This document shows positions 1-13,641 of a DNA stretch of 64,000 nucleotides, piece by piece. A program made the translations under genes and the position numbers. This stretch comes from Phaeobacter sp. J2-8 (GTDB lineage Bacteria; Pseudomonadota; Alphaproteobacteria; Rhodobacterales; Rhodobacteraceae), in NCBI RefSeq assembly GCF_022867865.1, contig NZ_JALIEC010000001.1, positions 664,501-728,500 on the forward strand, given 5' to 3'. Below the pieces are notes generated by a model, which had not been told where the DNA came from, made no database searches, and saw only the letters and a list, made by a program, of their open reading frames with translations. Numbering within the stretch: position 1 is the stretch's first letter; the number at the start of each line of letters is the position of its first letter.

Positions 1-2
1 TC

Positions 3-1757
3 GGTGCTGATTTCGATGTCGCGGAACTGCGTGACAAGATCGGCAATCGGGATAGGGACCAGGACGAACTTGCGAGTGTCACTCAGCAACGGACGGAGGT
101 GAGCACGTTGCTGAGCCGTCTGGATCAGGCTGCGGCAGGAAGTCTCGATACCGAGATCGCCGCACTGGAACGTGATGCCGCCGCCAGTGGATTGCTGTAC
201 GAATCCTGGCTGAACAGCCAAGGAGCAGAGATAACTCATGCACTGGACTCCCTCAGAGAGTTCCATTCTGAGCTATCGCCAATCGATGGCGCAAACGTCG
301 ACGATCAGGTCGGGGATGCACTGAGCTGGTGTGTCGATGAGATTGCACGCGGCCAACGGTTGCTAGACCAGCACAGCGCAGCGAGTGAGCAACTGACGGC
401 AGCGAAAACGACAATCCAGAGGGCGACAACCCGCATTAGCGAAATCAACTTGGCGCTCGAAGCGGGTACTAAGGATGTACAGACCTTGGCCGCTGCCCTT
501 GCAGGCATAGCGCCGCATGTTGAAGGTGATTTGTGCCCGGTCTGCAATCGCGACTACACGGAGGTCGATAGTGGTTCTCTGACCGCGCACATTGCGGAAA
601 CGATAGCGAACCTCACGTCGGAGGCGGGGCGCCTGCAGGCGCTCTCTGCGGAGCGTGCGTCAGAGAGCGAGCGATTGACGGCAGCTCGACGAAACGAGGC
701 GACTGCCGACCGGCTGGCGCTACAGCCCGAAGAGATTATCGATCTACGTCGACGCCAGACGGCGATCGCCTTTATTAGGTCAAGGCTTGAACCGCTGCAG
801 GACGCCGCCGCTCAAGGGAAAAACCTCTTTGGTAGCCTCGACAGTGCTCGCCGGGGCCTTGCGGCCTTGAAACGGACGGGACTGCAGTCGGCATCCTTAC
901 TTCTGGAGATCAATGCCGTAGTGGAACGGGCAACTGGCCAGCCACCGACAAGTTTTCCGGGCCTACGCGAGGCTCTCGATGCGGCGAACAAAGAGCTTTC
1001 GGGCCGTCTCGAAAACGTCCAAGCGGCTCTTTCTTCGCGCTTGGCCATCGAGACCGAACTCGAGCAGTATGCCCGCGAGGCCCAGTTGTTCTCGGACCGC
1101 CAAGCTCGGACTACCGAACTCGAAGCGCGCCTCGAGACGATGACGGGGGCCTTTTCTTCGATTGACGACGTCCGGAAAAGGGCCAAAACCATCGCGACCG
1201 CGGCAACCCAGGTCCGTTCCGGGATCGTCCGCGACGTTTTCAGCGGGTCGCTCAACAAGGTTTGGCGCGACCTTTTCGTGCGCCTTGCTCCGAACGAGCA
1301 ATTTGTTCCGCAGTTCCGCCTTCCCGATCAGGGAGATGGCAAGGTGGAGGCGGTGCTCGAAACTTTCCATCGGTCGGGACAGACCTCCGGTCCTCCGGGA
1401 GCCATGCTAAGTCAAGGCAACTTGAACACCTCGGCCTTGACTTTTTTCCTCGCGTTGAACCTGTCGGTACCGTCTCAGTTGCCGTGGCTCGTGCTTGACG
1501 ACCCCGTGCAGTCTATGGACGACGTACACATTGCGCAATTCGCCGCCCTATTGCGGACATTCTCCAAGGGCCTCGGCAAGCAGGTAGTCATCGCGGTGCA
1601 TGAGCGTGCCCTGTTCGAGTACCTTACGCTCGAACTAAGCCCAGCGTTCGCCGGTGATAGCTTGATAACTATCGAAATTAGCCGGAACTTTGCCGGAGAT
1701 GCCGTGGCGGATCCACACTTCTATGAATTTGAATATGATAAGGCCGTCGTTGCCTGA
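3..1757 (+). CDS. SMC/Rad50-like AAA ATPase, 5' end outside the window
   Basis: The frame is open from base 3, so the start lies left of the window and only about 584 C-terminal residues are visible. Most of it is heptad-rich coiled coil. In the middle is a zinc-hook-like CPVCNRDY motif (about nt 533-556). Near the end, LVLDDPVQSMDD is a Walker B plus D-loop and AVHE a following switch histidine, as in SMC/RecN/Rad50 ATPases. The N-terminal Walker A must lie upstream. Proteins of this build bind or bridge DNA, and many sit in defence loci. Here it lies inside an integrase-bearing island, so a defence or DNA-maintenance role is an inference. A partner gene would have to be upstream, because nothing follows it for 500 bases. 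Confidence 0.8.
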   Translation, partial: GADFDVAELRDKIGNRDRDQDELASVTQQRTEVSTLLSRLDQAAAGSLDTEIAALERDAAASGLLYESWLNSQGAEITHALDSLREFHSELSPIDGANVDDQVGDALSWCVDEIARGQRLLDQHSAASEQLTAAKTTIQRATTRISEINLALEAGTKDVQTLAAALAGIAPHVEGDLCPVCNRDYTEVDSGSLTAHIAETIANLTSEAGRLQALSAERASESERLTAARRNEATADRLALQPEEIIDLRRRQTAIAFIRSRLEPLQDAAAQGKNLFGSLDSARRGLAALKRTGLQSASLLLEINAVVERATGQPPTSFPGLREALDAANKELSGRLENVQAALSSRLAIETELEQYAREAQLFSDRQARTTELEARLETMTGAFSSIDDVRKRAKTIATAATQVRSGIVRDVFSGSLNKVWRDLFVRLAPNEQFVPQFRLPDQGDGKVEAVLETFHRSGQTSGPPGAMLSQGNLNTSALTFFLALNLSVPSQLPWLVLDDPVQSMDDVHIAQFAALLRTFSKGLGKQVVIAVHERALFEYLTLELSPAFAGDSLITIEISRNFAGDAVADPHFYEFEYDKAVVA

Positions 1758-2271
1758 AACCGAAAACGACTAGTCTTACCGACCGCGTGCCAGAGGGGAG
1801 TGTGTCGCCGAACTCCATATTAGACAGTGGCAGGCAATGATCGGAGTGCGTTGCGGCGGCGCAATATACGATGGTTGGTACATAGTGAAATGGAGCTTTG
1901 TAAAAGCCTCTGCCCCGGTCCGCTCAATTTCTGCGCAAGGCGTCGGGAGACAGCTTTGTCGAGCGCCTACGAACGGCTTTTGCGGCCTATCGGCGACGGC
2001 GATGGTCGGAAAGCGCTCGGCATCCTTGGATCAAATATGCAATGAGCCACGTCCGCTGTTGGGCAACTGCTGCCGTTCGTGACCAGCGAAGCGAAAGTCT
2101 GGAACCCGCCCTTAAAGTCAGGCTGCGGTGAGTGTAAAGGGTTGCTTCGGTTAAAATTTTTACTGTGTGTATGTCTGAATAAAGCCTGGAACCGAACCGC
2201 GCTTGCATATTCAGGCGCGAGCCCTCTATGCCCTGATATGTGACTGCCTTATTTGTTCGGCTGACGATCTT
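1758..2271. other. gene-free stretch between ATPase and small membrane protein
   Basis: Short open frames exist here but none has a convincing ribosome-binding site or protein-like composition. I see no tRNA and no clear terminator. It may be a remnant of lost island genes. Confidence 0.4.
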
Positions 2272-2544
2272 CTAGAATTTAGTAGAAAGGGCGGCCAAGG
2301 CGCGAGCGGCTTCTAATTTTCCTTGATGCGCCAAAACCGCCGCAACAAGAGAGACAAGGCAGGCAGCTAGCGTGGAAAGATTATAATCGATGCCGCCTTT
2401 CAGACCGAAAGCTAGGAGGCAGCCGAAACCGATCGCAGTGAAAAACAAGCCGGATGCGAGGAGCTTAAGTTTTTGCACGAGTTTTACTAGTCGCGCAGCC
2501 GCGACTTTGGATAAGCGCGTCAAAGGAGGCTCCCTTTTTCTCAA
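2272..2544 (-). CDS. small two-helix membrane protein, unknown function
   Basis: The product is 90 residues. A basic N-terminus (MRKREPPLTRLSK) is followed by two hydrophobic segments at about residues 28-46 and 58-74, then a short amphipathic tail. This fits an inner-membrane hairpin protein. I do not recognise a family. It lies just downstream of the XRE repressor gene on the same strand, 15 bases away, so the two are probably co-transcribed. In islands such small membrane proteins can be immunity, holin-like or superinfection-exclusion factors, but nothing in the sequence decides this. Confidence 0.5.
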   Translation of the reverse strand: MRKREPPLTRLSKVAAARLVKLVQKLKLLASGLFFTAIGFGCLLAFGLKGGIDYNLSTLAACLVSLVAAVLAHQGKLEAARALAALSTKF

Positions 2545-2559
2545 GTTTCGAAGCCGTGG

Positions 2560-2961
2560 CTAGCCCAACAGCTCCTGGATATCCGTTGCTGGCAAGCACT
2601 CACCTTGCGCTAGGCTGAATTTGATCAGCAGGCGCAGCATCTTTGCTTTTTCTGCATTGTCGCGCTCAGATGGTGATTGCTCCATTGCGTCCAAGCTGGC
2701 CTTCGCGACCTGCTCGATGATCTGCATGCTGCGGTCATCGGTGGGTTCCTTCTCACCAAGCAGAAGCCAATGAGGCGAAACGTTCATGATTTCATGAATG
2801 CGCAGTATGGCAGCCGTTGGCAGCTCGCGTTTTCCGTTCTCATATGCACGGTAGGAGCGAAACGAAGTATCGATCGTTTCAGCGAAATCCTGCTGGTTCA
2901 GGCCTGTTCGCGCCCTCAACTCCCTTAGGCGCCCTCCGATCTCCGAAAAGGTACTGGACAT
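2560..2961 (-). CDS. XRE-family (Cro/CI-like) repressor
   Basis: The product is 133 residues from ATG at 2961. Residues about 8-63 form an XRE helix-turn-helix (RLRELRARTGLNQQDFAE then SFRSYRAYENGKRELP), followed by a C-terminal helical region without a peptidase motif. The open frame runs further upstream, but the sequence before MSSTFSEIGG is the operator region and does not look coding. The gene is divergent from the excisionase-like gene at 3067, and the gap holds an array of TGGCCA-type repeats. This is the usual layout of an island lysogeny switch: the repressor probably controls itself and the integrase operon. Confidence 0.85.
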   Translation of the reverse strand: MSSTFSEIGGRLRELRARTGLNQQDFAETIDTSFRSYRAYENGKRELPTAAILRIHEIMNVSPHWLLLGEKEPTDDRSMQIIEQVAKASLDAMEQSPSERDNAEKAKMLRLLIKFSLAQGECLPATDIQELLG

Positions 2962-3010
2962 GTGCGACCTCAATTGGCCATAAGTGGCCACATATGGACA
3001 TATCGTCCGT
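2955..3010. promoter_or_regulatory. operator array between divergent repressor and integrase operon
   Basis: TGGACA at 2955, TGGCCA at 2975, TGGCCA at 2985 and TGGACA at 2995 are all in ten-base register, one helical turn apart. GGAC-ATATC-GTCC at 2996-3008 is an inverted repeat. The position between divergent genes and the spacing suggest sites for the adjacent XRE repressor. Confidence 0.5.
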
Positions 3011-3066
3011 TGAATGCTTGTTTCGACACAACGAGGTCTACCTATGTACAAGAAGAAAGGAAAGCT

Positions 3067-3306
3067 ATGTCCGAGATGATGTTGGAGTCGAAGGACGTGG
3101 CTGAGCGCCTGTCCTTGTCCGTGCGGCATGTTCGATCCCTGCTTGGCAGTCGCCAACTGCGTCATGTGCGCGTAGGGCGCCGCTTCCTCGTTCCGGAGAG
3201 CGCCCTTGACGAGTTCTTGGCCGCTCATACCGTTCAAGCCCTTCACAACGATCAGACCGACGAGGAGTTCATATATGAGCAACCTTCGCCCTCTGGTTGT
3301 CTCTGA
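3067..3306 (+). CDS. excisionase-type helix-turn-helix protein
   Basis: The product is 79 residues from ATG at 3067, which has the Shine-Dalgarno AAGGAAAG a few bases upstream. A longer open frame starts at 2962 but would cross the operator array. The sequence (ESKDVAERLSLSVRHVRSLLG, then HVRVGRRFLVPESALDEFL) is the MerR-like winged helix of the excisionase DNA-binding family. It is the first gene of a short operon leading to the integrase and overlaps the next start by 32 bases. It probably acts as a recombination directionality factor or local regulator. Confidence 0.7.
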   Translation: MSEMMLESKDVAERLSLSVRHVRSLLGSRQLRHVRVGRRFLVPESALDEFLAAHTVQALHNDQTDEEFIYEQPSPSGCL

Positions 3307-3484
3307 GCGAGGCGCCGCACACCTACTGAGTGTCCGGATCGACGAATTTCGCCGTCTTGTCGCCGGTGGCAGTGTACCGCGCGGACGAGAGCTGGCACCG
3401 GGCTTGACACGATGGAGCGTTGAAGAGCTGTCGGCCTTCGTCTCTGGCAAGGCTGTGCAAGGGCTGGAGGATGTCAGTTGGTGA
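3275..3484 (+). CDS. small winged-helix protein upstream of the integrase
   Basis: The product is 69 residues from ATG at 3275, with a GAGGAG ribosome-binding site at 3262-3267. It has the look of an AlpA/excisionase-type protein (VSERGAAHLLSVRIDEFRRLVAGG, then TRWSVEELSAFVSG). It overlaps both neighbours, so translation is probably coupled to the integrase. With the preceding gene it gives two consecutive small DNA-binding proteins before the integrase. Which of them is the excisionase cannot be told from sequence. Confidence 0.6.
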   Translation: MSNLRPLVVSERGAAHLLSVRIDEFRRLVAGGSVPRGRELAPGLTRWSVEELSAFVSGKAVQGLEDVSW

Positions 3485-4551
3485 AGAAGAAGTTCCTTTG
3501 GCGTCACCCCAGTGGTCGGTGGTATGTGCGCGTTCAGGGCCGCTACAATCGGATATCCGCGCAAGAGGGAACGCCCGAGTTCGATCTTGAATACTGGGAG
3601 ATCCTGACCGGCAAGAGGATGCAAGCTAAGACCAGCTGGTCAGCCTTGATGAAAGACTATCGGGCTTCGGAACGTTGGACATCACTGAAGCCAAGGACCC
3701 GACAAGACTACGAGAAGGTCCTAACTTACCTTGAAGAAAAGATCGGCGAACGAGACGTGAAACTGCTCTCGCGGCAAGATGTCATTAAGGCGCAGCGGGC
3801 CAATGCGCACCGTGTGCGGTTTGCTAATTATATCCCGCAGATGCTGGTTATTCTGTGCGAGCACGCGATCGATCTTGGCTGGCTGTCGCAGAACCCGGCG
3901 AAGGGCGTTCGCCACTTGCCGACGCCTGACGACAAGAAGCAGGCCCATCTGCCGTGGACCGATCAGGCTGTCTCGACTTTCCGCGAGAAAGCGACAACCA
4001 TCGAGCGACTTATTTTCGAGATCGGTGTAGGTACAGTGCAGCGGCCAGGCGACTGGGTGGATTTCACTTGGTCGGATTTTGACGGCGAAACGCTTGCGGT
4101 TTTGCAGAACAAGACCGGCTACGCGCTTCAATTGCCATGTACAGCGGAGCTGAAGGCCGTGCTGCTCGACGCTCAGGCACGATTGGAGGATGATGCTGAG
4201 GGGCCGATCCTGCGCACACAGACTGGTGGCAAAATGAGCTACCGCTACATGGCGCAGATCATGCTCAGGGCGCGGCGTCGCATGCAGCTGGAGCAATTTG
4301 ACCTGCACGCTTTGCGCTATCGCGGAATCAAGGAGTTGGCTTGGGCAGGCTGCTCGGACGACGAGATCAAATCTTTCAGCGGCCACGCGACTGACGCGAT
4401 GGTCCGGAAATATGCCGGTGAGGCGCGCCAGATTATGCGTGCGCGGCAGGCGGCAGAGAAACGAAATGACACAGGGAACGAACGGGGATCAGAGAGAGAA
4501 CCTGATACCCATAGTGATACCACCAAGAAGAGGAACCAGCTATGTCATTGA
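3481..4551 (+). CDS. int: tyrosine recombinase / island integrase (element 1)
   Basis: The product is 356 residues from GTG at 3481; TTG at 3478 is an alternative and both follow GGAGG at 3466. The N-terminal part holds an arm-type domain and a SAM-like core-binding domain (about residues 50-145). The catalytic domain shows R188 (VQRPGD), H276xxR279 (HALRY), H302 (SGHAT) and nucleophile Y311 (RKYAG), so the active site is complete. It ends 6 bases before the tRNA-Cys fragment at 4558, the normal place for an integrase that uses that tRNA as its attachment site. The island it serves extends left out of the window. Confidence 0.93.
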   Translation: MKKKFLWRHPSGRWYVRVQGRYNRISAQEGTPEFDLEYWEILTGKRMQAKTSWSALMKDYRASERWTSLKPRTRQDYEKVLTYLEEKIGERDVKLLSRQDVIKAQRANAHRVRFANYIPQMLVILCEHAIDLGWLSQNPAKGVRHLPTPDDKKQAHLPWTDQAVSTFREKATTIERLIFEIGVGTVQRPGDWVDFTWSDFDGETLAVLQNKTGYALQLPCTAELKAVLLDAQARLEDDAEGPILRTQTGGKMSYRYMAQIMLRARRRMQLEQFDLHALRYRGIKELAWAGCSDDEIKSFSGHATDAMVRKYAGEARQIMRARQAAEKRNDTGNERGSEREPDTHSDTTKKRNQLCH

Positions 4552-4557
4552 AAATAA

Positions 4558-4603
4558 TGGAGGCGAGTACCGGAATCGAACCGGTGTACACGGATTTGCA
4601 ATC
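4558..4603 (-). other. attachment-site remnant: 3' part of a tRNA-Cys
   Basis: Read on the minus strand this is the anticodon loop to CCA end of tRNA-Cys. It aligns without gaps to the intact tRNA-Cys at a constant offset of 9010 bases. Bases 4558-4569 and the 19-base block TGTACACGGATTTGCAATC (4585-4603) are identical. The six differences all fall in the T-stem and keep it paired (ACCGG/CCGGT instead of AGGAG/CTCCT). It marks the junction between two elements stacked in the same tRNA. Confidence 0.8.
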
Positions 4604-4670
4604 ACCCGCATGTCGTTGAAATATCGGCTACTAACTGTAAACACCCCACCTTTTGTGGTGTCCTGAAATC

Positions 4671-4732
4671 AAACGGTTGCAATCCGATTGTAAACCGTTT
4701 GCGCGGTTTCAAACATCGTCACGGTTTGACTT
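4671..4732. repeat. cluster of AAACCG-type repeats, possible origin or operator
   Basis: AAACGGTT (4671-4678) and AACCGTTT (4693-4700) form an inverted repeat with 8-base arms. CGGTTT recurs twice more downstream (GCGGTTTCAAAC, CACGGTTTGAC). The cluster lies just inside the left end of element 2 and upstream of its replication-type gene, so iterons or a regulator site are both possible. Confidence 0.35.
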
Positions 4733-4817
4733 TCGGTGGCGTAAGTGCCGAGCAATGGCCGTGCAATAACCCCCGTTCAGCAACGCGCCTATCCGGGGAT
4801 TTCCTTGCGGTGCCGTC

Positions 4818-5705
4818 ATGAGCCACCGAGCGAATTACTGGCTGGCGCAACTTGAACCCAAAAGGGTCAAGCCTGGAGCGTTTCGGGTGCTCTTTCACCT
4901 TTGTGATTTCCACAATGATGAACGCGATCCGCGCCGAGCTTGTTTCCCGTCGCAGGACACATTGCGCAAGCGCACAGGCATGGCCAATGGCACATTGAAC
5001 AGCGCGCTTGCACAGCTCGAAACGGATGGTTTGATCCGCCGCATTCGATCGACAATTCCCGGCGAGGCCAAGCGAAGAACCTACTACATCCTTGAGTGCG
5101 ATTTCGCCCGTTTGGGTGAGCAAACTCCGCAAAATGGAGTTAGCCCAAACTCCGGCGCGCCGGAGGCAGCACAGAAGCTAACTCCGGTTTCAGAGGAAGC
5201 TAACTCCGGTTTTTCGGGGGGCAAACTCCGGCCCACCGGAGATGATCCTGTAAGGAACCTTAAAGGAAAGAATGTGTGTGGATCTGAGGGCGATCACATT
5301 CAGCAAACTCCAGACGGTTTCGAAGAGTTCTGGGAAGTTTACCCAAGAGTCCGAGACCGGGTGACGAGTTGCAAGCTGTTCGCAGATGCAGTGAAAGCGG
5401 GTGTTGATCCAAAATGGATTGTAAAAGCTGCAAAGCGGTATGCATCCGAGAATGCCAAGAACAACGCGGCATACATCGCGTATTCGACCAATTGGCTTGA
5501 AGCGAGTCGCTGGCAAGATTGCCCGCAGGACGTACCGGCGAGAGAGACCGGAAGCGTTGCCGAGAAGGTAGCGCGGTTCTGGGCGGATAAAATCATATCG
5601 GGCCAATACGTGCCGCAATCTGCCATCAACCCGGCTCTTGCTGAGTATTTGCTGGAAAATAAACTGGTGGCGGAAACTGATCTGCACCGCGCAGGGCTGA
5701 TGTGA
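4818..5705 (+). CDS. winged-helix replication-type protein (phage O-like)
   Basis: The product is 295 residues. Residues about 14-95 form a helix_36-type winged helix (GAFRVLFHLCDFHNDE, CFPSQDTLRKRTGMANGTLNSALAQLETDGLIRR) as in phage replication initiators and plasmid Rep-like proteins. A Pro/Ser/Gly-rich linker follows, then a C-terminal domain beginning at FEEFWEVYPR, a block often seen in phage O/DnaT-like helicase loaders. It is the first gene of the left arm of element 2 and overlaps the next gene by one base (TGATG). A role in starting element replication after excision is an inference from the family and position. Confidence 0.7.
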   Translation: MSHRANYWLAQLEPKRVKPGAFRVLFHLCDFHNDERDPRRACFPSQDTLRKRTGMANGTLNSALAQLETDGLIRRIRSTIPGEAKRRTYYILECDFARLGEQTPQNGVSPNSGAPEAAQKLTPVSEEANSGFSGGKLRPTGDDPVRNLKGKNVCGSEGDHIQQTPDGFEEFWEVYPRVRDRVTSCKLFADAVKAGVDPKWIVKAAKRYASENAKNNAAYIAYSTNWLEASRWQDCPQDVPARETGSVAEKVARFWADKIISGQYVPQSAINPALAEYLLENKLVAETDLHRAGLM

Positions 5706-6022
5706 TGGCTGGTCATGCTTTAGTCATGAAACGCAGTGGTGGCGCTATGTTCGGCTTGACCTGGTCAGCGGTGATTGATGCGCCTAGGGACGGCAAGGGC
5801 TTCGATCTTGTACAGAGCAACGCGCTGGCTGTTTTGGGTGGAACTCACAAAGCCGTTCACACGGAGTCGATTGAACCGCGCTTTTTTGAAAGCAATGCTC
5901 CGCTGGCCGTCGCGCTCCAGCGTTTGGTTCTAGTCATCTGCCAATTGGATCTCGCACCTTTTGACTGTCTGGCCGGGATGGCGTTTTGCGCTCATCAAGC
6001 CAAAGACCCTAGGGCCTGCTGA
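5705..6022 (+). CDS. hypothetical protein, coupled between Rep-like and capsid genes
   Basis: The product is 105 residues. The ATG at 5705 overlaps the stop of the preceding gene (TGATG), pointing to coupled translation. I recognise no domain, signal peptide or membrane span. The C-terminal third is rich in Ala, Leu and Cys. It ends with a TGATG overlap to another open frame that runs into the capsid gene. Low certainty, since the composition is only moderately protein-like. Confidence 0.4.
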   Translation: MAGHALVMKRSGGAMFGLTWSAVIDAPRDGKGFDLVQSNALAVLGGTHKAVHTESIEPRFFESNAPLAVALQRLVLVICQLDLAPFDCLAGMAFCAHQAKDPRAC

Positions 6023-6249
6023 TGCGCACCAAAGTTGCTCTTTCTATCAGCGTTCCTGGACAGAACTCCGGGATCTTCCATCCGCTAGCACGGGTCCTTC
6101 CAGTAGGGGGGCAGCACACGGGTAATTCGCATCCCGTTTCATGCAAGCAACTGACTTCATTTATAAATAATGAATGTTGTGGTTGTTATTATTGTTCCAT
6201 TGGGAACCGGAAAGGCGACCGTTTCGCCCGTATTGAAGGGGAACAGTTC

Positions 6250-7815
6250 ATGTTCGCAAAGCAAATCTCGGGCACTTCGGCCCAAAATCGGTCGCTGGAA
6301 TTGGCGAAATTTGGTAGAGGCGGCGCAGGCATTGCGCGCGCCGAAGGGAACCCAGGCCAAACAACAACTGGCGGTTCAAACCGCGCCGTTGCAAATGGCC
6401 AGCCATCCGCGCGGTATTTGGCGCAGATCCGCATGGCGGGGCAGCGGGCACAACTGTCTGCAGCGTTTATGGATGTGATGGCAGATACAGGTACGGTTCC
6501 GGCAAATGCCGATGCAGTCGCGGCGGGATTGGCGCAAGTGGCGCAGATGGTTGCGCCGTTCGCGGGATCGGCCGGAATGGATGAAGCTGCTGTTTTGTCC
6601 ATCGCGCGGCGCGCTGTGTTGTCTGCCGCTGAATTGCCAAGCGGGAACGGCACAGAAATCGCCGATGCAATCGCGGGGTTTGCAGGTCAAGAAGCTGCGG
6701 CCACAATGGCACGGCTGGAAAGACCGCTGCGCCCAGTATCCAGCGACGTAACCTTTCGCGGATCTTCGGGGGTGACGCGCGCCGATGCTATGGCCGATGG
6801 GTTGATGGCGCGCATGGTGGCCGGACACGTCCCGACACATGGCCGGGAGTTCGCCAATATGCGGCTGGACGAAATGGCGCAGCTAAGCGCTGGCGGCAAT
6901 TATCTTCGGGGCCGTCGCAATGCATCAATGTTCGGCGGGGCGATGGGCACCGATGATTTTGGCTCCGCCCTGGCGATTGCTTCGAACAAGGTTCTCTTGC
7001 AAGCCTATGAAGCTTCGGAATCTCAAATCAAGCGGGCATCCCGTGAAATCGAAGCCCCGGATTTTCGGCCCATCAATTCTGTTCGCGTTTCTGGCGGCGT
7101 GGAATTGGGCAAGGTCAAAGAGAATGGTGAATTCACTGCCGGAACGATCACCGACGCGGGCGAAGCTTTTGTTATCGAAACCTATGGCAAAATCTTCACG
7201 CTGACCCGGCAGGCAATCGTCAACGATGATCTAGGGGCATTCGAACAAAGCGCCACGATGTTCGGACAGGGCGCAGCGCTGACCGAAGCGCGGATCTTTG
7301 CGACGTTGCTGGAAATGAACAGCGGCGCTGGGCCGGTTATGTCCGACACAGTCAATTTGTTCGATGCGGCGCATGGAAACCTGGCATCCAGCGGCGGCGC
7401 TCTTTCGATCTCCACGCTTTCCGCTGCACGCACTGCGATGCGCCGTCAAAAAGGGCTGGCAGGTGAGGCGATCCGGGTTGATCCGGCCATGCTGATTGTG
7501 CCGCCTGAATTGGAAACGGTAGCGGAACAGCTTGTCGCGGAAATCGCAGCAACCACCACTGACGAATCCAACCCGTTCACCGCCAAATTGACAGTGCTGG
7601 CCGATGCGCACCTGACCGATGAAGATGCTTGGTATATCGCGGCGCTTCCGGGCCGTCCTGATGGCCTGCAGCATGCTTACCTGAGCGGGACAACCGGGCC
7701 GCAGATTTTCACCCGTGAGGGTTTCGAGACCGACGCCAGTGAATTCAAAGTGCGTCTCGATTTCGGCGCTGGGTTTGTTGATCACCGTGCCTGGTACAAG
7801 AACCCCGGCGTGTGA
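6250..7815 (+). CDS. Mu gpT-like phage major capsid protein
   Basis: The product is 521 residues from ATG at 6250, preceded by GAAGGGGAAC. The open frame begins at 6022, but those 76 extra residues are Cys-rich and unlike a capsid. The C-terminal 300 residues match the Mu-like major head subunit family: APDFRPINSVRV, GEFTAGTI, TYGKIFTLTRQAIVNDD, LFDAAHGNLA and FTREGFETDASEFKVRLDFGAGFVDHRAWYKNPG are typical landmarks. The N-terminal 200 residues are Ala-rich and helical, like the region that joins protease and capsid in fused versions. Family members form the icosahedral head shell. Here the protease is a separate gene 3.8 kb downstream. No portal or terminase is nearby. Confidence 0.88.
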   Translation: MFAKQISGTSAQNRSLELAKFGRGGAGIARAEGNPGQTTTGGSNRAVANGQPSARYLAQIRMAGQRAQLSAAFMDVMADTGTVPANADAVAAGLAQVAQMVAPFAGSAGMDEAAVLSIARRAVLSAAELPSGNGTEIADAIAGFAGQEAAATMARLERPLRPVSSDVTFRGSSGVTRADAMADGLMARMVAGHVPTHGREFANMRLDEMAQLSAGGNYLRGRRNASMFGGAMGTDDFGSALAIASNKVLLQAYEASESQIKRASREIEAPDFRPINSVRVSGGVELGKVKENGEFTAGTITDAGEAFVIETYGKIFTLTRQAIVNDDLGAFEQSATMFGQGAALTEARIFATLLEMNSGAGPVMSDTVNLFDAAHGNLASSGGALSISTLSAARTAMRRQKGLAGEAIRVDPAMLIVPPELETVAEQLVAEIAATTTDESNPFTAKLTVLADAHLTDEDAWYIAALPGRPDGLQHAYLSGTTGPQIFTREGFETDASEFKVRLDFGAGFVDHRAWYKNPGV

Positions 7816-8355
7816 TGTTCGGCAGATTTTGGCGGGACCGTTGAAGTTGGTTCCGCCGGTCTGTGCAAATGCATCGCAGTCCGTCGATTTTGGGGTCAGT
7901 GGGCGCATGGGGGGCGGGTGCCTCGGGCAAGTGCCCAAAGTGGCGCTTAAGCGCCTGAGAGGCCCGCACAGACGGTTTTGCAGATAAGGTTGATCGACCT
8001 GCGCCCTGAGTTTGGGCGGCAACGATTGGGATTAGTCGGATAGTGCCCTGTCAATCCATCTAAAAACCCCGACCTGGCACGGCCCGGACCTCCTTCGGGC
8101 GTGGTGCCACATTTCGCAGATAGAACATCTGCAAGGGCCGATTCCAGCCAATGGAGTCGGCTTTGTTTGTTGCAGTTCGGACATAGGGATAAGGAGCGTG
8201 TCGCGGTGTCCGCCGCACACATTGTGATGGCCTTTAAGGTCGACAATGCGCAGATAGCGACCTTTGCAAATTTACTGTATCTGGCGTCAAATTAGAGATC
8301 CTGTACTTTACACGCAACAGATTGAGAGGATATTCGAGGTGAGTGCTGTAAGGGA
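7816..8355. other. 540-base gene-free region with palindromes inside element 2
   Basis: GGCGCTTAAGCGCC at 7942-7955 is a perfect 14-base palindrome. CCGGTCTGTGC (about 7856-7866) and GCACAGACGG (about 7966-7975) form a longer inverted pair. GGCAC/GTGCC arms lie around 8078-8112. I see no credible gene. It could hold terminators for the convergent genes, a small RNA or a packaging site. Confidence 0.4.
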
Positions 8356-9270
8356 CTACTTAGCACTAGGATAGATGATGCGCTGGATGCCCGAGCCAGA
8401 GGAAATAAATCCCCCAACTTGGACTCCCAATCGTTCGCTGACTTTCTGAAGGAATTGAGAGGGATCTACATCCTTGTATACAAGAGCATCGACACCGAGG
8501 GTGGGGCAAAAAAAGAAGCCAAATTTTCCTTCCGAGAAGTAAAGACCAGCACCAGTGTACTCGCCAGGAAGACTACGAACTGTACTAACGGAAGAAATCC
8601 CATCTTCGGCACCACCAAGTGCAAGGTTAGTCCATTCGCCAGCTGCTAACTCAATGGTTACTGGTGCAAGCCCTGCCATTGTGCTTGCCCGTAAATCATA
8701 GTCGAAGTAGGGGCGGCCATTCTTGTGGTATTCAACGCGAACCGAAAAATAGAAGTGGCCAGCCGACTCTACGCCGCCGTCTGAAATGAACTCGGCAAAA
8801 GCCCAGTCTGTTCGTTCCGCAAGATCTGAGATTGCCGCCCCTTCTGCTGAATGAAACTTTCCTTGAAATTTCTCAAACGCCTCGATGTCTCCTATCCAGC
8901 AAGAGCCTTGATCCTCTAATATCTCTTGGGCCGTAACTTTAGCCAAAGTTCCAGCTCCCCGTATTGAAGACACAATGAATTCCGCCCCCTGAGATCCACC
9001 GTGATCATAGTTCTTTGCGATATGTTGGGTAAGTTGAAGGATCTCGTTCCAGTGGATTCCTGCTTCGAACTTACCCTTGATGCAGGACCAAAGTTCCTTA
9101 GGCGCTTCTACGTTGCCCGCGAACGCGATAGCAAGGTCCTGTACGGGAAGCCATATTTTGAGAGTGCCTTCTTTTGGCGGAAGTCGTTCCCCATTAGGGC
9201 CAGTTAGCTTGATGTCAGAAAATACTCTAATATTCCCTGGCGAAAATTTTTTGCCAATTATAAATGTCAT
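8356..9270 (-). CDS. proteasome-like Ntn-hydrolase family protein, probable cargo
   Basis: The product is 304 residues from ATG at 9270, which has TTAAGG at good spacing; the 7 upstream residues of the open frame lack one. If Met1 is removed, the N-terminus reads TFIIGKKF. D19 (FSDIK), K38 (GTLKIW) and the following AIAFAGN then line up with Thr1, Asp17, Lys33 and the glycine loop of proteasome beta subunits, HslV and Anbu. The rest (about residues 80-304) I do not recognise. It may be a self-processing peptidase or amidohydrolase. It lies on the opposite strand from the phage-type genes, has lower GC content, and looks like a cargo gene. Function is an inference from the N-terminal motif only. 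Confidence 0.6.
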   Translation of the reverse strand: MTFIIGKKFSPGNIRVFSDIKLTGPNGERLPPKEGTLKIWLPVQDLAIAFAGNVEAPKELWSCIKGKFEAGIHWNEILQLTQHIAKNYDHGGSQGAEFIVSSIRGAGTLAKVTAQEILEDQGSCWIGDIEAFEKFQGKFHSAEGAAISDLAERTDWAFAEFISDGGVESAGHFYFSVRVEYHKNGRPYFDYDLRASTMAGLAPVTIELAAGEWTNLALGGAEDGISSVSTVRSLPGEYTGAGLYFSEGKFGFFFCPTLGVDALVYKDVDPSQFLQKVSERLGVQVGGFISSGSGIQRIIYPSAK

Positions 9271-9291
9271 AGTGAACCTTAATTGTTTCAT

Positions 9292-9646
9292 GCGCGCAGC
9301 AAGTTCCTGCTACTCTGAAGTTGAACTCAAAGAGTAGGTTCGCCACAGCTTAGCTATACGGCCACGACTTTGCAAAACCCACGTCTTACGCTCTGCCGGA
9401 GCTGGTGCGGGCTACAACATCATCTGAGACAGTGCGGCCCCGTCGAGGGTCCGCATTCGGGAAAGCGCCCAAGGAATTTCGGACCGACAGCTTCATTGGC
9501 GCCTGTCGCTATGTTGTGTCAGCTTCGGGCCGACTGGGGCCTTCTGAGTAATCATTCAGAGCGCCAATGATCCCAAAGGGGCACTGCTGCGGCTTTTCTT
9601 GAGGCCGTTCTCGATACTTCCCGATGCTCCTCGGCATTGAGGGGGG
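9292..9646. other. gene-free stretch between cargo gene and repressor
   Basis: A 66-codon open frame at 9370-9570 has no ribosome-binding site and looks non-coding. I see no clear RNA gene. Confidence 0.35.
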
Positions 9647-9907
9647 TCATTTCTCGTTGTTGGCCTTGGTTAACCTAACGCCAGCGCCGCCGCCATTCTC
9701 AGGGATGAACTCGACTCCCTCACTTTCGAGTGCATGGCAAATTGCGGTAACGGCATCAGCCGAAGGGTAGGGTTTCCCGGACCCTTCGGCTCTTTTTACT
9801 GTCATTGAAGACACTCCGGCAAGTTCCGACAGTCTCTTTTGGGAGAGACCTTTTAGTGCCCTGCCTGCCCTGATTTGTCCGGCCAGCGATTTTTTCTCTT
9901 GTTCCAA
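9647..9907 (-). CDS. XRE-family repressor of element 2
   Basis: The product is 86 residues if TTG at 9907 is the start. The longer open frame would cross the operator palindromes and has no better start. Residues 9-60 are a typical XRE helix-turn-helix (QIRAGRALKGLSQKRLSELAGVSSMTVKRAEGSG). The tail is short (EFIPENGGGAGVRL), a form common in small alphaproteobacterial prophage repressors. It is divergent from the gene at 9965. Two 17-base palindromes overlap its start and upstream region, so self-repression and control of the rightward genes are likely. Confidence 0.78.
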   Translation of the reverse strand: MEQEKKSLAGQIRAGRALKGLSQKRLSELAGVSSMTVKRAEGSGKPYPSADAVTAICHALESEGVEFIPENGGGAGVRLTKANNEK

Positions 9908-9940
9908 AATAGAACATTCCTTATGTTCCCATGTGGAACA
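9900..9940. promoter_or_regulatory. two TGTTC-N7-GAACA palindromes, probable repressor operators
   Basis: Site 1 is TGTTCCAAAATAGAACA (9900-9916), site 2 is TGTTCCCATGTGGAACA (9924-9940). Both are 17-base dyads with centres 24 bases apart. Site 1 overlaps the repressor start codon and site 2 lies in the divergent promoter region. Confidence 0.65.
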
Positions 9941-9964
9941 ATACCACAATAGGATACCCTGACA

Positions 9965-10261
9965 ATGACGAACGAACGCGTTTGCGCGAACGGGATAGCT
10001 ATGCCCAAAAAGCCGCATTCCGAACTGAACCCCTATCACAAGGCGATATTCCTTCACGAAATGATTCAGGCGGCGGTCACGATTGTTGAAACGCTTCCAA
10101 GTGACAAGATCGTCAAAACCGGCCTGTCTGCGCTTCTTGATGTGATCGGAGAGCGGGCAAATGCGCTCCAATTCGATCTTGATGCCGCCGCATTCTGCGA
10201 ATGCTGGCCAGCGGTTTCTGCGGCGCTGGGCCGGGACGCAGCGCTTGGGTTTCGGGAGTGA
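9965..10261 (+). CDS. hypothetical protein, first gene right of the operators
   Basis: The product is 98 residues from ATG at 9965. It is mostly alpha-helical with a central amphipathic run (YHKAIFLHEMIQAAVTIVETL). It has no signal peptide and no membrane span, and no domain I recognise. It is the first gene transcribed away from the repressor, the place where phage-like elements keep an early regulator (Cro, antirepressor) or replication factor. That role is only suggested by position. Confidence 0.5.
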   Translation: MTNERVCANGIAMPKKPHSELNPYHKAIFLHEMIQAAVTIVETLPSDKIVKTGLSALLDVIGERANALQFDLDAAAFCECWPAVSAALGRDAALGFRE

Positions 10262-10327
10262 TTAGGTGCTGCAACTTAAGGTGATGATGTGCCGAACGGT
10301 GCATTTCAATGACAGGAGTTCACGACT

Positions 10328-10771
10328 GTGACGGATGAACGTTTTTTTGCGACCCCCTCAACGCCCGCCGCGCAGCCGGTGCGCAACTTGGAAAACAACG
10401 ATGTGGAAGGCTATGCATTGTGTTCCGAGCATATTTTCCATGAGCATGTTCAAAAAACTCAGTCCCTGCGAGACCGTCACGCGGCCTATCTGGACGGTCT
10501 GCCGACTGATCCAAAAGCTGCTGTTGCGGCGGCAAATAAGCTGCTTCGCTTCGGCCTTCGGGAATATCCTGACGGGATTGAAGAGGCCCTGCATTTGTCC
10601 TGGGCGCTTAGTGCAATGGTTCAATCATGCGGCACAGATGAAGAAGGGCCGCAGCGGTCCGCCACGATCTATGTCGCGGAGCGGGTGGCTCTTGCGATGA
10701 TCCGTGCCACCCAACAGTTGGACCGGATTTCGGACATTTTGGGCAATCCGGGACGGGTCGAGCGACAGTAA
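10328..10771 (+). CDS. hypothetical protein of element 2
   Basis: The product is 147 residues from GTG at 10328, with AGGAG about 11 bases before it. It looks helical and soluble, with even codon use like the neighbouring capsid and protease genes. I recognise no domain. It lies between the repressor-controlled first gene and the MerR-type gene, all on the plus strand, so it probably belongs to the same early or late transcript. It could be a structural accessory or a helper-phage-interaction factor, but nothing in the sequence proves this. Confidence 0.55.
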   Translation: MTDERFFATPSTPAAQPVRNLENNDVEGYALCSEHIFHEHVQKTQSLRDRHAAYLDGLPTDPKAAVAAANKLLRFGLREYPDGIEEALHLSWALSAMVQSCGTDEEGPQRSATIYVAERVALAMIRATQQLDRISDILGNPGRVERQ

Positions 10772-10897
10772 GGCAAACCTTGGATGAAGATTCCGGTTTG
10801 CAAATTTCATCGACCCGCCTGTTGTCTTGACGACTCTCCAAGAACATGTATCTTAAAACGTATATTCGAACACATGTTAATCCAAGGGAGACCCCAT

Positions 10898-11377
10898 ATG
10901 GACTTCGCAGATTTGCGTTTCACAGTTTCAGAAGTCGCAGCGCTTACTGAAACTAATCTCAACACGGTTCAGGGCTGGCGGCGCAAAGGCTTTTTTGACT
11001 TGGGTGATGGGGAAGGTTGGCACCGCTTCACTATGACAGAGCTATTCTCAATTGCCGTTTTCGCAGAAGTTTCCGGTTGGACCGGCAATCAAGACGTTGC
11101 CTCTTCCTCTTGCTCTTTGGCCGACCAGATGTTGACTGAAATCATCGAAGACGGTGCTGCGCCCTACTTTGTCGGCGCTGGCCGCAATGGCACCGTTTCG
11201 GCGATGGAAGTTACTTATGGCATTGATGATGTGGGCCGCGTCTTGAGCGGCTTGTTGGTAACTGGTGTGGATGCCGGAGCCTATATTGTGGTGGATTACA
11301 GCGCGATCTTTCAGCGCCTGTTCGAGCGCCTTCATAAGGCCGGATATACCGTCAACAAAAATGGCGAAGATAACTGA
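10898..11377 (+). CDS. MerR-type helix-turn-helix regulator of element 2
   Basis: The product is 159 residues from ATG at 10898, with AAGGGAG upstream; the open frame starts at 10784 but those residues look non-coding. The N-terminal 60 residues (DLRFTVSEVAALTETNLNTVQGWRRKGFFDLGDGEGWHRFTMTELFSIAVFAEVS) are a MerR-like winged helix. The remainder has a small alpha/beta domain of unknown role. A two-base gap leads to the next gene, then an overlap leads to the head protease. That places it in one operon with capsid-maturation genes, so a late-gene activator is a fair guess. Confidence 0.6.
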   Translation: MDFADLRFTVSEVAALTETNLNTVQGWRRKGFFDLGDGEGWHRFTMTELFSIAVFAEVSGWTGNQDVASSSCSLADQMLTEIIEDGAAPYFVGAGRNGTVSAMEVTYGIDDVGRVLSGLLVTGVDAGAYIVVDYSAIFQRLFERLHKAGYTVNKNGEDN

Positions 11378-11378
11378 C

Positions 11379-11597
11379 ATGGCACACCTTCATACCTTTG
11401 ATCTTGGCCACCCCTTTGAATTCATCCAGCTTGTCGAGTTGCATCGCCGGGAAGACTGCGAAGATGGGATTTTGGAGATTTCCGGCCTGTACGCAATAGC
11501 GCCTGACGAACCTGGCGGTTTGGTGACGGTCAAAGAAATTCGGCAGATCCAAGACAGAAATCTTCAATTTACAAATCGTTTCGAGGTGGTGGAATGA
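11379..11597 (+). CDS. small hypothetical protein before the head protease
   Basis: The product is 72 residues from ATG at 11379. It begins two bases after the preceding stop and its own stop overlaps the protease start (ATGA at 11594). It is mixed alpha/beta and acidic, with no recognised domain. Tight coupling to the protease gene suggests a head-related or regulatory accessory factor. Confidence 0.5.
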   Translation: MAHLHTFDLGHPFEFIQLVELHRREDCEDGILEISGLYAIAPDEPGGLVTVKEIRQIQDRNLQFTNRFEVVE

Positions 11598-12202
11598 CGC
11601 CGGCGTTGCATATTCATGGCCCAATTGGCGAAGGTGAGAATACGCCCGCTGCAATTGGTGCGTTCCTCTCGGAAAATTCCGCTGTGTCGGTGACTGTGGC
11701 GATCAATTCTTTTGGTGGTATCGCATCCGATGGCGCGGCGATTATGGCGCTCTTTGAGCAACATGGACGGGTCCAGGCGGAAGTGATCGGTGTGGCCGCT
11801 TCTGCGGCCTCCTTGATGGTTATGGGTGCTGCTGAAATCACAATGCACACGGCGGCGCATATGATGATCCATGAGCCGTCAAATCTTGCCTGGGGAACCG
11901 CAGAGGATCTGCGCCGCGAAGCGGATATGCTGGAAAAACTGTGCGAAACCTATGGCGCCGCCTATTCCCGTGCGACCGGCCACCCGGTAGAGAGAATCCG
12001 CGCTTGGATGGCGGCGGAAACTTGGCTGACTGCCGACGAAGCCCTTACACTGAACTTCTGCAACTCGATCTTCGGGGCTGATGAAGCAACGCCGGAGCCG
12101 GTCGCGCAATTCGATTACACCCGTTTCAAATCGCCGCCCGTCGAATTGGCGCAACTTGCGGTTCGAAAGGGATGGGCCGGAAACGTCGCCGAATACTCCT
12201 AA
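11594..12202 (+). CDS. ClpP-like phage head maturation protease
   Basis: The product is 202 residues. It has the ClpP/S14 fold signature: N-terminal INSFGG strand, nucleophile Ser70 in GVAASAAS, catalytic His93 in MMIHEPSN, and an acidic residue in TAEDLRREADML (D105 or D111). Phage members of this family cut the scaffold and capsid precursor during head assembly. In many Mu gpT-type phages this domain is fused in front of the capsid; here it is a separate gene downstream of it. Its presence with an intact triad argues that the capsid pathway is, or recently was, functional. The start overlaps the previous stop by four bases. Confidence 0.85.
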   Translation: MTPALHIHGPIGEGENTPAAIGAFLSENSAVSVTVAINSFGGIASDGAAIMALFEQHGRVQAEVIGVAASAASLMVMGAAEITMHTAAHMMIHEPSNLAWGTAEDLRREADMLEKLCETYGAAYSRATGHPVERIRAWMAAETWLTADEALTLNFCNSIFGADEATPEPVAQFDYTRFKSPPVELAQLAVRKGWAGNVAEYS

Positions 12203-12266
12203 GATAACCCAAAGCCGCGGACCGATGTGATTCGTTTGGTTGGCTTTCCCCAAGAGGTTTTTACAC

Positions 12267-12458
12267 TTGCCACGCCCATCTGTTCCTTTGCCAAAAGACG
12301 TGATTGCCATCGTGAAAGGGTTGAAAAACGAGGGCATTTCCTCCGGGCTTATACGCTGCGCAGATGGAACCGAAATAAAATGGGGTACTACTGAAAAGGC
12401 AGATGCGCCCGTAACTGAATTGGAAAAGTGGAAGGCCAAGCGCAATGCAACTTCCTAA
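12267..12458 (+). CDS. small conserved protein preceding the integrase
   Basis: The product is 63 residues from TTG at 12267, chosen because AGAGG lies just upstream and the sequence from PRPSVPLPKDVIAIVKGLKN onward is protein-like; TTG at 12240 is the longest option. The C-terminus is charged (TELEKWKAKRNA). From memory, a similar small gene often precedes integrases in rhodobacterial elements. It overlaps the intact integrase reading frame (ATG at 12445) by 14 bases, so it was translationally coupled to it. A role as directionality factor is possible but not shown. Confidence 0.55.
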   Translation: MPRPSVPLPKDVIAIVKGLKNEGISSGLIRCADGTEIKWGTTEKADAPVTELEKWKAKRNATS

Positions 12459-13493
12459 GGGTGTGCATAGGGTCCGGCGGAAGCTAGCCAATGGAAAGAG
12501 CCGGTTTCACTTCTATGCATGGCGCGGGCGCGGCGCTCCGAAGTTTTGGGAGGACAACAAGAGAATCCCACGGAGCCGGATTTTTTCGTAGCATACGCGG
12601 AATGTGTCGAACGTCCGAAACCGGCAATGCTTATGGTGTCTGCACTTGTGGATGAATTTTTGTCCAGTGCGTCAATGCCCAAAGGTGAACGGTCCAAGGC
12701 GGATCTGCGCAAGTGGGCTTTGCGCTTTGCCAAGCATTTTGACACGGCACCCGCTGTGATCTTCGAGGAACGCGGTTCCCGTGGCGAGGTCAATGCATGG
12801 CGAGCGAAGTGGAAGCACTCGCCTAAGCAACACGACATGGCCGGAACGCACGCGGTTCGCGTTCTGAATTGGGCGGTGGAAGAAGGTAAGCTATCAGAGC
12901 ACCATTGTCACAAGTTGCGGCAACTCTATGAAGTCGACCGCTCCGAGATCGTTTGGACGCCAGCGGATCGTGATGCAATCGACGCCAAGGCACCGGAGTG
13001 GGTGCGGCGTATTCTCTGTGTCGCCTGCGAGACTGGTTTGCGCCCTGGCGATCTTATCAAGCTGACAACTGGTGCAGTGGAGCAAACCCCGAAGGGGCGG
13101 CGGTTGCGTGTGAGGACGAACAAACGCGGACGTGTCGCCCATATCCCGATCACTCCGAAACTTGCCACGACTATTGATGCTACGCCCCGCGACCGACTGT
13201 TGATCCTTACCAACGCCAGTGGGCGGCCATTGACCGAACATCGCGCTTCTGAGGGTCTGCGCCAGTGGCGTGACAAAGCGGGACTAAGTCGCGATCTGCG
13301 GTTGCAAGATTGCCGAGGTACGGCGGCAACCCGACTATTGAACGTAGGTTTGAGCCTGTCGGAAATTGCCAACCACATGGGCTGGTCAATCCGTCACGCC
13401 GCTAATGTGATCGAACATTATGCCCGCGTATCGCCGAACGAAACTGACGCAGTTTTGGTCAAGTTGGCACAAGCAAAAGGGGGTGGACAGTGA
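12445..13493 (+). pseudogene. int: tyrosine integrase of element 2, N-terminal frameshift
   Basis: The family start is ATG at 12445 (MQLPKGVHRVRRKLANGKSR..), in a frame that stops at about 12590. The rest continues one base out of frame from ENPTEPDFFVAYAE (about 12553) to 13493, giving a 324-residue open frame from 12519 that lacks the arm-binding N-terminus. The catalytic domain has Arg (TGLRPGD), the second Arg (QDCRGTAAT), Trp (HMGW) and Tyr (EHYARV). The His of the HxxR box is Gln (CAA codon). The gene lies 74 bases from the 3' end of tRNA-Cys, as expected for its attachment site. Frameshift plus His-to-Gln suggest weak or no activity, unless the indel is an assembly error. Confidence 0.8.
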
Positions 13494-13567
13494 ACAAAAC
13501 TGTAAACGCCCCTGTAAACCGCGCAGTGCGCGCAATCTATGAGGTGAGTTAAGTGATTGATTTTAAA

Positions 13568-13641
13568 TGGAGGCGAGTAGGAGAATCGAACTCCTGTACA
13601 CGGATTTGCAATCCGCTGCGTCACCACTCCGCCAACTCGCC
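13568..13641 (-). tRNA. tRNA-Cys (GCA), attachment site of the stacked elements
   Basis: The minus strand folds as a complete cloverleaf: acceptor GGCGAGT/ACTCGCC, anticodon loop around TTGCAAA with GCA, T-arm AGGAG-TTCGAAT-CTCCT and an encoded CCA end. Its 3' half is duplicated, with a changed T-stem, at 4558-4603. Confidence 0.96.

Follow-up and report, generated by a model that had tools for sequence, protein, structure and literature searches.

Can a mobile element that carries a capsid gene and a head protease gene, with no detectable terminase, portal or tail gene, live as a phage satellite? This question is raised by a 9.0 kb integrated element (~9.01 kb) of Phaeobacter sp. J2-8, at 4556-13613 of the window, by which we mean the whole 64,000-nucleotide stretch analysed here (G000:C1:664501-728500, on contig NZ_JALIEC010000001.1 of a 4.8 Mb genome). 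We found that the element belongs to a family of small elements, here called class C, with a single capsid lineage and a cos-like (cohesive-end) motif. We read class C as small Rhodobacteraceae phage satellites whose own major capsid protein (MCP) and ClpP-type protease build proheads, with terminase, portal and tail supplied by a lambda-type helper; we give this reading a probability of roughly 0.6.

The element lies between a tRNA-Cys fragment and the intact tRNA-Cys (13568-13641, minus strand), as the original prediction, made from the sequence alone, had stated: a 48 bp copy of the 3' part of the tRNA gene at 4556-4603 is 87.5% identical to 13566-13613 (E 1e-12). Between these attachment (att) sites the order is rep, a small open reading frame (ORF), MCP, a reverse ORF of unknown function, an XRE-type repressor, two small ORFs, a MerR-like gene, a small ORF, the ClpP-type protease, a small ORF and the integrase; the repressor, replication-type protein and capsid match the families expected of them (Table 1). 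Scans of ten ORFs of the element against Pfam, PHROGs and NCBIfam gave no match to a terminase, portal, connector, tail or HNH family, and PHROGs together with hidden Markov models (HMMs) built for this analysis detected no small terminase subunit (TerS) in it. To that extent the original statement on absent head and tail genes holds. The accompanying claim that a scaffold is lacking is doubtful, as the MCP model (mean predicted local distance difference test score, pLDDT, 71.3; predicted template modelling score, pTM, 0.56) has a helical N-terminal domain at about residues 53-157 that appears scaffold-like.

The Protein Data Bank (PDB) matches of this model (Foldseek, best E 3.3e-6) are HK97-fold shells: encapsulins come first, followed by JBD30, HK97, P4, SaPI1 and the capsid-forming phage-inducible chromosomal island (cf-PICI) EcCI2 among others. 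The leading encapsulins would suit a storage compartment, that is, an encapsulin-like shell in an integrative element rather than a container for DNA. We consider this very improbable, since the same list includes shells of JBD30, HK97, P4, SaPI1 and EcCI2, and the head maturation protease, scaffold-like domain, cos-like site and rep point to DNA packaging. We also ruled out a truncated capsid gene, a candidate raised by an NCBIfam match starting only at position 199: the free-standing MCPs of three relatives (L036, L037, L077) have the same plan, and the window MCP aligns with them at its N-terminus.

The ClpP-like head protease had been described with its triad. The family assignment stands (NF045542) and, for the residues that we take to be the triad, serine and histidine are kept, but the aspartate column holds an asparagine in the window copy; the other unfused homologues aligned all have Asp (5/5). 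A fused relative, L109, likewise has Asn at this column.

A family with one capsid clade

We searched 394 genomes of the family for the MCP, and 95 had a match at E 1e-30 or better. The surroundings of 139 loci were read with HMMs built for this analysis, and two without an MCP match were dropped. The remaining 137 comprised 70 loci of prophage type (portal and terL, no integrase in the slice), 28 cf-PICI-like loci (portal, protease-MCP and, 1.3-3.2 kb past the MCP start, an integrase; terS and terL in most), ten class-C loci, two remnant-like loci (L045, L079) and 27 that were on cut contigs or unclear. A locus was assigned to class C if its MCP accompanies a ClpP-type protease and neither terL nor portal was detected, membership being set by gene content and not by the tree; the ten genomes, out of 394, are those of the window, L036, L037, L076, L077, L078, L081, L109, L110 and L195. 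Because their contigs end upstream of the MCP (after 0.4 kb in L110, whose protease lies outside the view, and 4.6 kb in L081), L110 and L081 do not prove that upstream genes are missing.

A first scan of genome contigs with the MCP alone gave no match. A ClpP-alignment scan of named genomes added six class-C loci: L302 (a 9,611 bp contig), L303 (Rhodobacter maris), L304 (Cypionkella aquatica), L305 (Falsigemmobacter faecalis), L307 (Cypionkella sp.) and L308 (Xinfangfangia pollutisoli). The total is thus 16, with 15 beyond the window and two cut by contig ends. Among the earlier members, L076 is Fertoeibacter niger, L037 Rhabdonatronobacter sediminivivens, L078 Chachezhania sediminis and L036 an uncultured Rhodobacteraceae; their contigs L306, L309, L310 and L311, in that order, are not further members, and each was counted once in the tree. 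The nearest relative of the window element is L302 (NYWU01000036.1; ClpP 73-74%), which is binned in a metagenome-assembled genome of Idiomarinaceae, perhaps through a binning error.

The gene set recurs elsewhere in the Rhodobacteraceae, where the original prediction had proposed to look, with sites at tRNA-Cys, -Glu, -Arg, -Phe and -Pro and at tmRNA. In PHROGs, ten more ORFs taken from seven of the class-C loci gave no terminase, portal or tail family; terS is present in L036 and L037. In the common plan of class C, rep or an AAA helicase is followed by the cos-like site, regulators with variable genes, the MerR-like gene, ClpP, MCP, xis and int. MCP is fused to ClpP in L081, L109 and L195, and L307 departs from the plan with its MerR-like gene near int. 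L077 has the window's rep (97 bits), the ORF at 10328 (114 bits), ClpP, MCP and int, ordered as in the window except for MCP. The window, L303 and L302 have a split order, with MCP next to rep or helicase and apart from ClpP (L302 has no int). Because these three have it in common, we regard the split order as inherited; that MCP moved in the window copy only was ruled out.

Class-C elements are also uniform in size. Seven integrated members have a significant att repeat, and their lengths run from 8,778 to 9,682 bp. L302, L305 and L310 have exact terminal overlaps (99, 45 and 123 bp) and no integrase match, and we therefore read them as circular, at 9,512, 9,061 and 8,880 bp; these 8.9-9.5 kb circles with MCP and ClpP seem to be plasmid-like members. 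BrnT/BrnA occur in L302 and L310, and a Rep3-type initiator in L310. Together, the ten well-measured members span 8.8-9.7 kb; weak repeats give 9.03 kb for L077 and 9.96 kb for L037. The cf-PICI-like elements average 11.1 kb (range 7.1-12.6 kb; 14 estimates, some from short repeats).

We found that all 16 class-C MCPs (16/16) group in a single clade that leaves out the 119 phage and cf-PICI-like MCPs (support 0.984, 135 rows). Of 147 loci, 135 entered this tree; the remnants L045 and L079, like other short MCP matches, did not reach its length limit. The clade was kept when 92 MCPs from IMG/VR were added (support 0.974, 227 rows), with none of the 92 inside it. An IQ-TREE analysis of 53 rows (all 16 class-C, 10 ClpP-type prophage rows, and random samples of 12/28 and 15/81 others) recovered the clade at 91/99, and in 90% of 200 bootstrap trees a single branch separated class C from all other rows. 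L307 forms a long branch. The capsid lineage is thus not one that class C has in common with the full prophages sampled, and its MCPs are far from those of prophages with matching cos.

The MCP and protease are under purifying selection. Ratios of nonsynonymous to synonymous substitution (dN/dS) between the window and L302 were 0.154 for MCP (dS 1.62) and 0.123 for ClpP (dS 1.31); the corresponding values were 0.193 and 0.158 for the window and L303, and 0.324 and 0.315 for L302 and L303. The L109-L110 comparison of MCP gave 0.073. All comparisons with usable dS lie at 0.07-0.32, ratios that are rough because of high dS yet well below 1; two out-of-frame L081 MCP comparisons were left out of this set. 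Since the ratios are well below 1, capsid and protease do not evolve neutrally. The original prediction had argued from conserved active sites against random decay; in the window copy, however, the triad is not kept in full.

Could class C nevertheless be debris, the functionless leftover of a cf-PICI-like satellite or prophage that has lost terminase and portal? The split integrase and the Asn at the protease Asp position of the window copy would agree with this; remnants at the same type of site exist, such as L045, with its primase-MCP junction beside an integrase at tRNA-Cys; and upstream there is a fragment of a sister integrase with 97% identity. We judge decay to be quite unlikely, given one MCP clade that spans many genera without terL, low dN/dS, and the retention of gene order, cos-like site and uniform size. 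This gene set is absent from every full prophage and every cf-PICI-like element in the collections that were searched. Because of this, and because the class-C clade excludes the 119 other MCPs, the window element is not a fresh deletion remnant of a sampled prophage. As a general explanation, a reduced prophage is ruled out by the MCP clade, selection and gene order. Among the three alternatives that had been offered (a new minimal class of capsid-encoding satellite, a capsid-based transfer or storage element, a much reduced prophage), the first fits best, with the same minimal set in 15 further loci; the third is unlikely.

Two observations concern other loci of the survey. Six (L044, L139, L160, L171, L181, L217) have more than 5 kb upstream in view, yet no terL, portal, ClpP or int was detected in them; they may be remnants or something else. 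The 28 cf-PICI-like loci (for example L032, L040, L118, L133, L149 and L198), with portal, protease-MCP and int at tRNA genes, place such elements in many Rhodobacteraceae genomes; the hosts of cf-PICIs named in PMC10803314 belong mainly to other families.

A cos-like site of phage type

Comparison of the window with L302 and L303 revealed a conserved non-coding stretch before MCP. A lambda-type cos-like site, which the original prediction had missed, lies at 6088-6136. The ends of lambda carry GGGTCCTTTCC and CGCGGGTTTTCGC, which resemble both arms of the window site. A cos is composed of cosQ, cosN and cosB (PMC9026076, PMC4669245), and we read the two arms as a predicted cosQ and part of cosN. 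The exact pattern has one match in the 4.8 Mb genome, the one in the element, and none reversed; a slightly looser pattern has none in 20 Mb of random sequence that preserves the dinucleotide steps, and none in window 1-4500, window 14001-64000 or the neighbouring elements.

We found that the motif is placed before the terminase genes of phages. A fuzzy search gave 44 matches in the loci, three of them copies of the window site (in L001, L005 and L028), which were excluded from counts. In all 24 terL-bearing loci with the motif (24/24), it lies 530-1,217 bp upstream of terL, and it stands 88-423 bp before terS in the 17 loci where terS was detected. In IMG/VR, where at least 120 stretches have the pattern, terL follows downstream on the same strand in 98 of the 120 listed (median distance 778 bp, 95 within 1.5 kb), and 19 of the 22 others listed end within 1.3 kb. 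Three IMG/VR stretches with the motif (L334, L360, L433) continue for 2.9-8.8 kb downstream without a terL match and could be cos-bearing satellites without a capsid. In Paracoccus phage Pben1, the left arm and a variant of the right arm stand immediately upstream of terS.

The motif is present in 13 of the 16 class-C elements, all without terL; exact matches were found in 5 of the 12 class-C or remnant genomes searched. Behind it, phage and class-C sites have the same two types of element: a GTT-repeat type (10/14 class-C sites, the window included, and 8/16 phage sites) and a TTAAC type (three class-C and four phage sites). Neither type occurs at the seven cf-PICI-like sites (0/7), and the sole class-C site lacking both belongs to L036 (L311), an element with its own terS; L251, a copy of L043, was excluded from these counts. 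Random 60 bp windows contain the GTT type at 0.17% and the TTAAC type at 0.03%. L303 has two tandem cos-like sites (4738-4782 and 4863-4911), one of each phage type. Moreover, in genome G257 the satellite site matches that of the co-resident prophage L203 at 82% over 107 bp (108 bits), the best of 155 loci apart from itself and its copies; the next match has 68.9 bits. The prophages of G257 and G345 each have an ORF that, by eye, resembles a tape measure gene.

Possible packaging by a helper phage

Taken in order, the steps of the satellite cycle that we propose would be as follows. A lambda-type (GpA-terminase) tailed phage would infect or be induced, and the XRE/MerR-like switch would be relieved. 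The element would be excised by its own integrase, some relatives seeming to live as circular plasmids, and would replicate via its own rep or helicase. Satellite MCP and protease would then form proheads around the helper portal; the helper terminase would recognise the satellite cos, cut unit-length DNA of ~9 kb and pack it; and helper tails would complete the particle. Scaled roughly by volume from T=7 heads that hold 40 kb, such a shell would be about T=3. We would lay even odds on a stronger form of this proposal, in which class C is a long-lived, separate satellite family that makes hybrid virions of an unreported type, with shell and protease from the satellite and portal, terminase motor and tail from the lambda-type helper, joined only via the phage-like cos. 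Some members of such a family would be int-less 9 kb plasmids, two with BrnT/BrnA, and one has two cos types, as if for two helpers.

Several observations weigh against the satellite reading. The events in the cell, from induction and excision to prohead assembly on a helper portal, cleavage at the motif and the use of helper tails, are inferred. A tyrosine integrase is present, as had been claimed, but it is not intact: the gene runs over two frames, with first-frame residues 6-47 and second-frame residues 13-323 matching different parts of the L045 integrase. This split may be an assembly error, or the window copy may not excise by itself; likewise, its protease may be weak, given the Asn at the Asp position. 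The 4.8 Mb genome has no lambda-type helper by the two terminase and portal families searched genome-wide (GpA terminase PF05876 and lambda-type portal PF05136, no match), and a portal of unrecognised sequence may exist in the elements. As for the cos-like site, its core spacing is shorter than that of lambda, Rhodobacter phage RcKemmy lacks the motif, and so do L037, L195 and the cut L110 (3/16). The motif occurs in only 11/70 prophage-type and 7/28 cf-PICI-like loci and so marks one group of phages, and we defined the GTT and TTAAC types after looking at the sites. The satellite site of G345 matches an unrelated IMG/VR contig best (74.3 bits) and its co-resident prophage second best (73.4 bits). 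Finally, the IMG/VR loci examined (the best 80 of 559, the best 80 of 257 and one distant match) included no class-C MCP.

A helper-dependent element could also use its capsid genes to remodel or interfere: satellite MCP and protease would co-assemble with helper MCP, changing head size or poisoning helper heads in the manner of P4 Sid or SaPI proteins, and the DNA would travel in mixed or helper heads, perhaps as concatemers. The lack of an own portal and the helper-type cos agree with this, and satellites of the PICMI group (phage-inducible chromosomal minimalist islands) package concatemers in helper heads (PMC10803314). We consider remodelling unlikely: a whole MCP with its own protease and N-terminal domain exceeds the need of a size factor, and class-C MCPs are distant from those of prophages with matching cos. 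No Sid or P4-type gene names turned up in the general Pfam, PHROGs and NCBIfam scans, which were not aimed at them.

Known satellites resemble class C in part. Like cf-PICIs, the window element is integrative and has its own MCP and head maturation protease beside an integrase. The original prediction was right that cf-PICIs carry more of the head module: their own genes supply MCP, protease, portal, head-tail connectors, TerS, TerL and HNH, and a helper has to provide tails only (PMC10690885), whereas portal, connectors, TerL, TerS and HNH went undetected in the ten-ORF scans of the window element. Their mean size is 14 kb (PMC10803314), compared with ~9 kb. The Streptomyces satellites MulchRoom and MiniFlayer also have capsid genes, together with small and large terminase, portal, scaffold and adapter (PMC10690885); in class C no large terminase or portal gene was detected. 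P4, whose DNA the helper terminase packages at cos (PMC10690885), uses Sid to resize the helper capsid, and PICMI satellites lack capsid-remodelling genes (PMC10803314); both resemble class C in being small, but neither supplies MCP and protease, as class C does.

The Gram-negative cos-rpp PICIs recruit the helper terminase with a copy of lambda-type cosQ/cosN, some having two cos sites (PMC9026076, PMC6739421). The window element likewise has a cosQ/cosN-type motif with both arms, in a spacing unlike lambda's, and L303 has two sites. The cos-rpp PICIs have no phage-like cosB and use Rpp and the helper capsid; the window element has a phage-like region behind its cos-like site and its own capsid gene. 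In E. coli PICIs, RppC redirects TerS (PMC6739421). The MerR-like gene, 4.8 kb from the cos-like site, is a candidate TerS or Rpp analogue; the fold search with its model (mean pLDDT 76) put the MerR regulator CvkR first and RppC only at E 0.15. The gene may be a late switch or a packaging redirector.

In the open-access PubMed Central literature searched, we found no satellite with capsid and protease and without portal and terminase. Described satellites use or reshape helper heads or, as cf-PICIs do, make full heads and take tails; a lineage providing shell and protease only would fall between these. If our reading is correct, the portal of one virus can nucleate the shell of another, distant virus, the mutual recognition of portal, shell and terminase becomes directly testable, and capsid and protease genes that stand on their own next to integrases in Rhodobacteraceae are not necessarily dead prophages. 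The DNA motif and the gene pair can be used to find more class-C elements.

Feature coordinates and the tandem array at tRNA-Cys

Table 1. Features of the class-C element in window coordinates.
Feature	Position	Strand	Evidence
Left att, copy of tRNA-Cys 3' part	4556..4603	-	87.5% over 48 bp to 13566-13613, E 1e-12
Replication initiation protein (rep)	4818..5705	+	phrog_270, E 4.8e-27; full-length relatives in L304, L308, L077
ORF, no family match	5702..6022	+	Pfam, PHROGs, NCBIfam
Lambda-type cos-like site: GGGTCCTTCC, 17-18 bp core, GGGTAATTCGC arm	6088..6136	+	sole exact match in genome
GTT-repeat element 3' of cos-like site	6182..6190	+	common to 8/16 phage sites
MCP, free-standing, HK97 fold, start inferred	6250..7815	+	PF25209, 153.7 bits; PF10124; NF045541 positions 199-633
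ORF	8356..9291	-	no Pfam, NCBIfam or PADLOC family; one marginal PHROG of unknown function
XRE-type repressor	9647..9907	-	PF13560
ORF, no family match	9965..10261	+	Pfam, PHROGs, NCBIfam
ORF with relative in L077	10328..10771	+	113.5 bits
MerR-like gene, 5' of ClpP	10898..11377	+	weak PF13411; MerR-type fold
Small ORF preceding ClpP	11379..11597	+	weak match in L302, E 0.0015
ClpP-type head maturation protease, Asn at Asp position	11594..12202	+	NF045542 above its cut-off; alignment
Small ORF	12240..12458	+	ORF list
Integrase, first part, other frame	12445..12591	+	residues 6-47 match L045 integrase, E 1.6e-9
Tyrosine integrase, main part	12519..13493	+	PF00589; 64% to L045 integrase
Right att in intact tRNA-Cys (gene 13568-13641)	13566..13641	-	tRNA call and 48 bp repeat

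Four elements stand in tandem at one tRNA-Cys, and the class-C element of the window is the last of them; this array of ~50 kb (G000:C1:627631-678141, with window 1-13641 as its right end) had also been missed by the original prediction. Copies of att lie near 627.63, 631.87, 638.72 and 669.06 kb of the contig, followed by the intact tRNA-Cys at 678.07 kb. The first element ends with an integrase piece 97% identical to the integrase of the window element, which indicates that a sister copy was once at the same array. The second carries HerA and SIR2 defence genes (PADLOC; L025 14270-17213, G000:C1:632269-635212), and its integrase appears by eye to be broken by a transposase-like ORF. The third, of 30 kb (L026, L027 and window 99-1757), contains a type I restriction-modification set, a further methyltransferase-like gene, an LmuB-like gene and, by eye, a pair of near-identical transposase-like ORFs.

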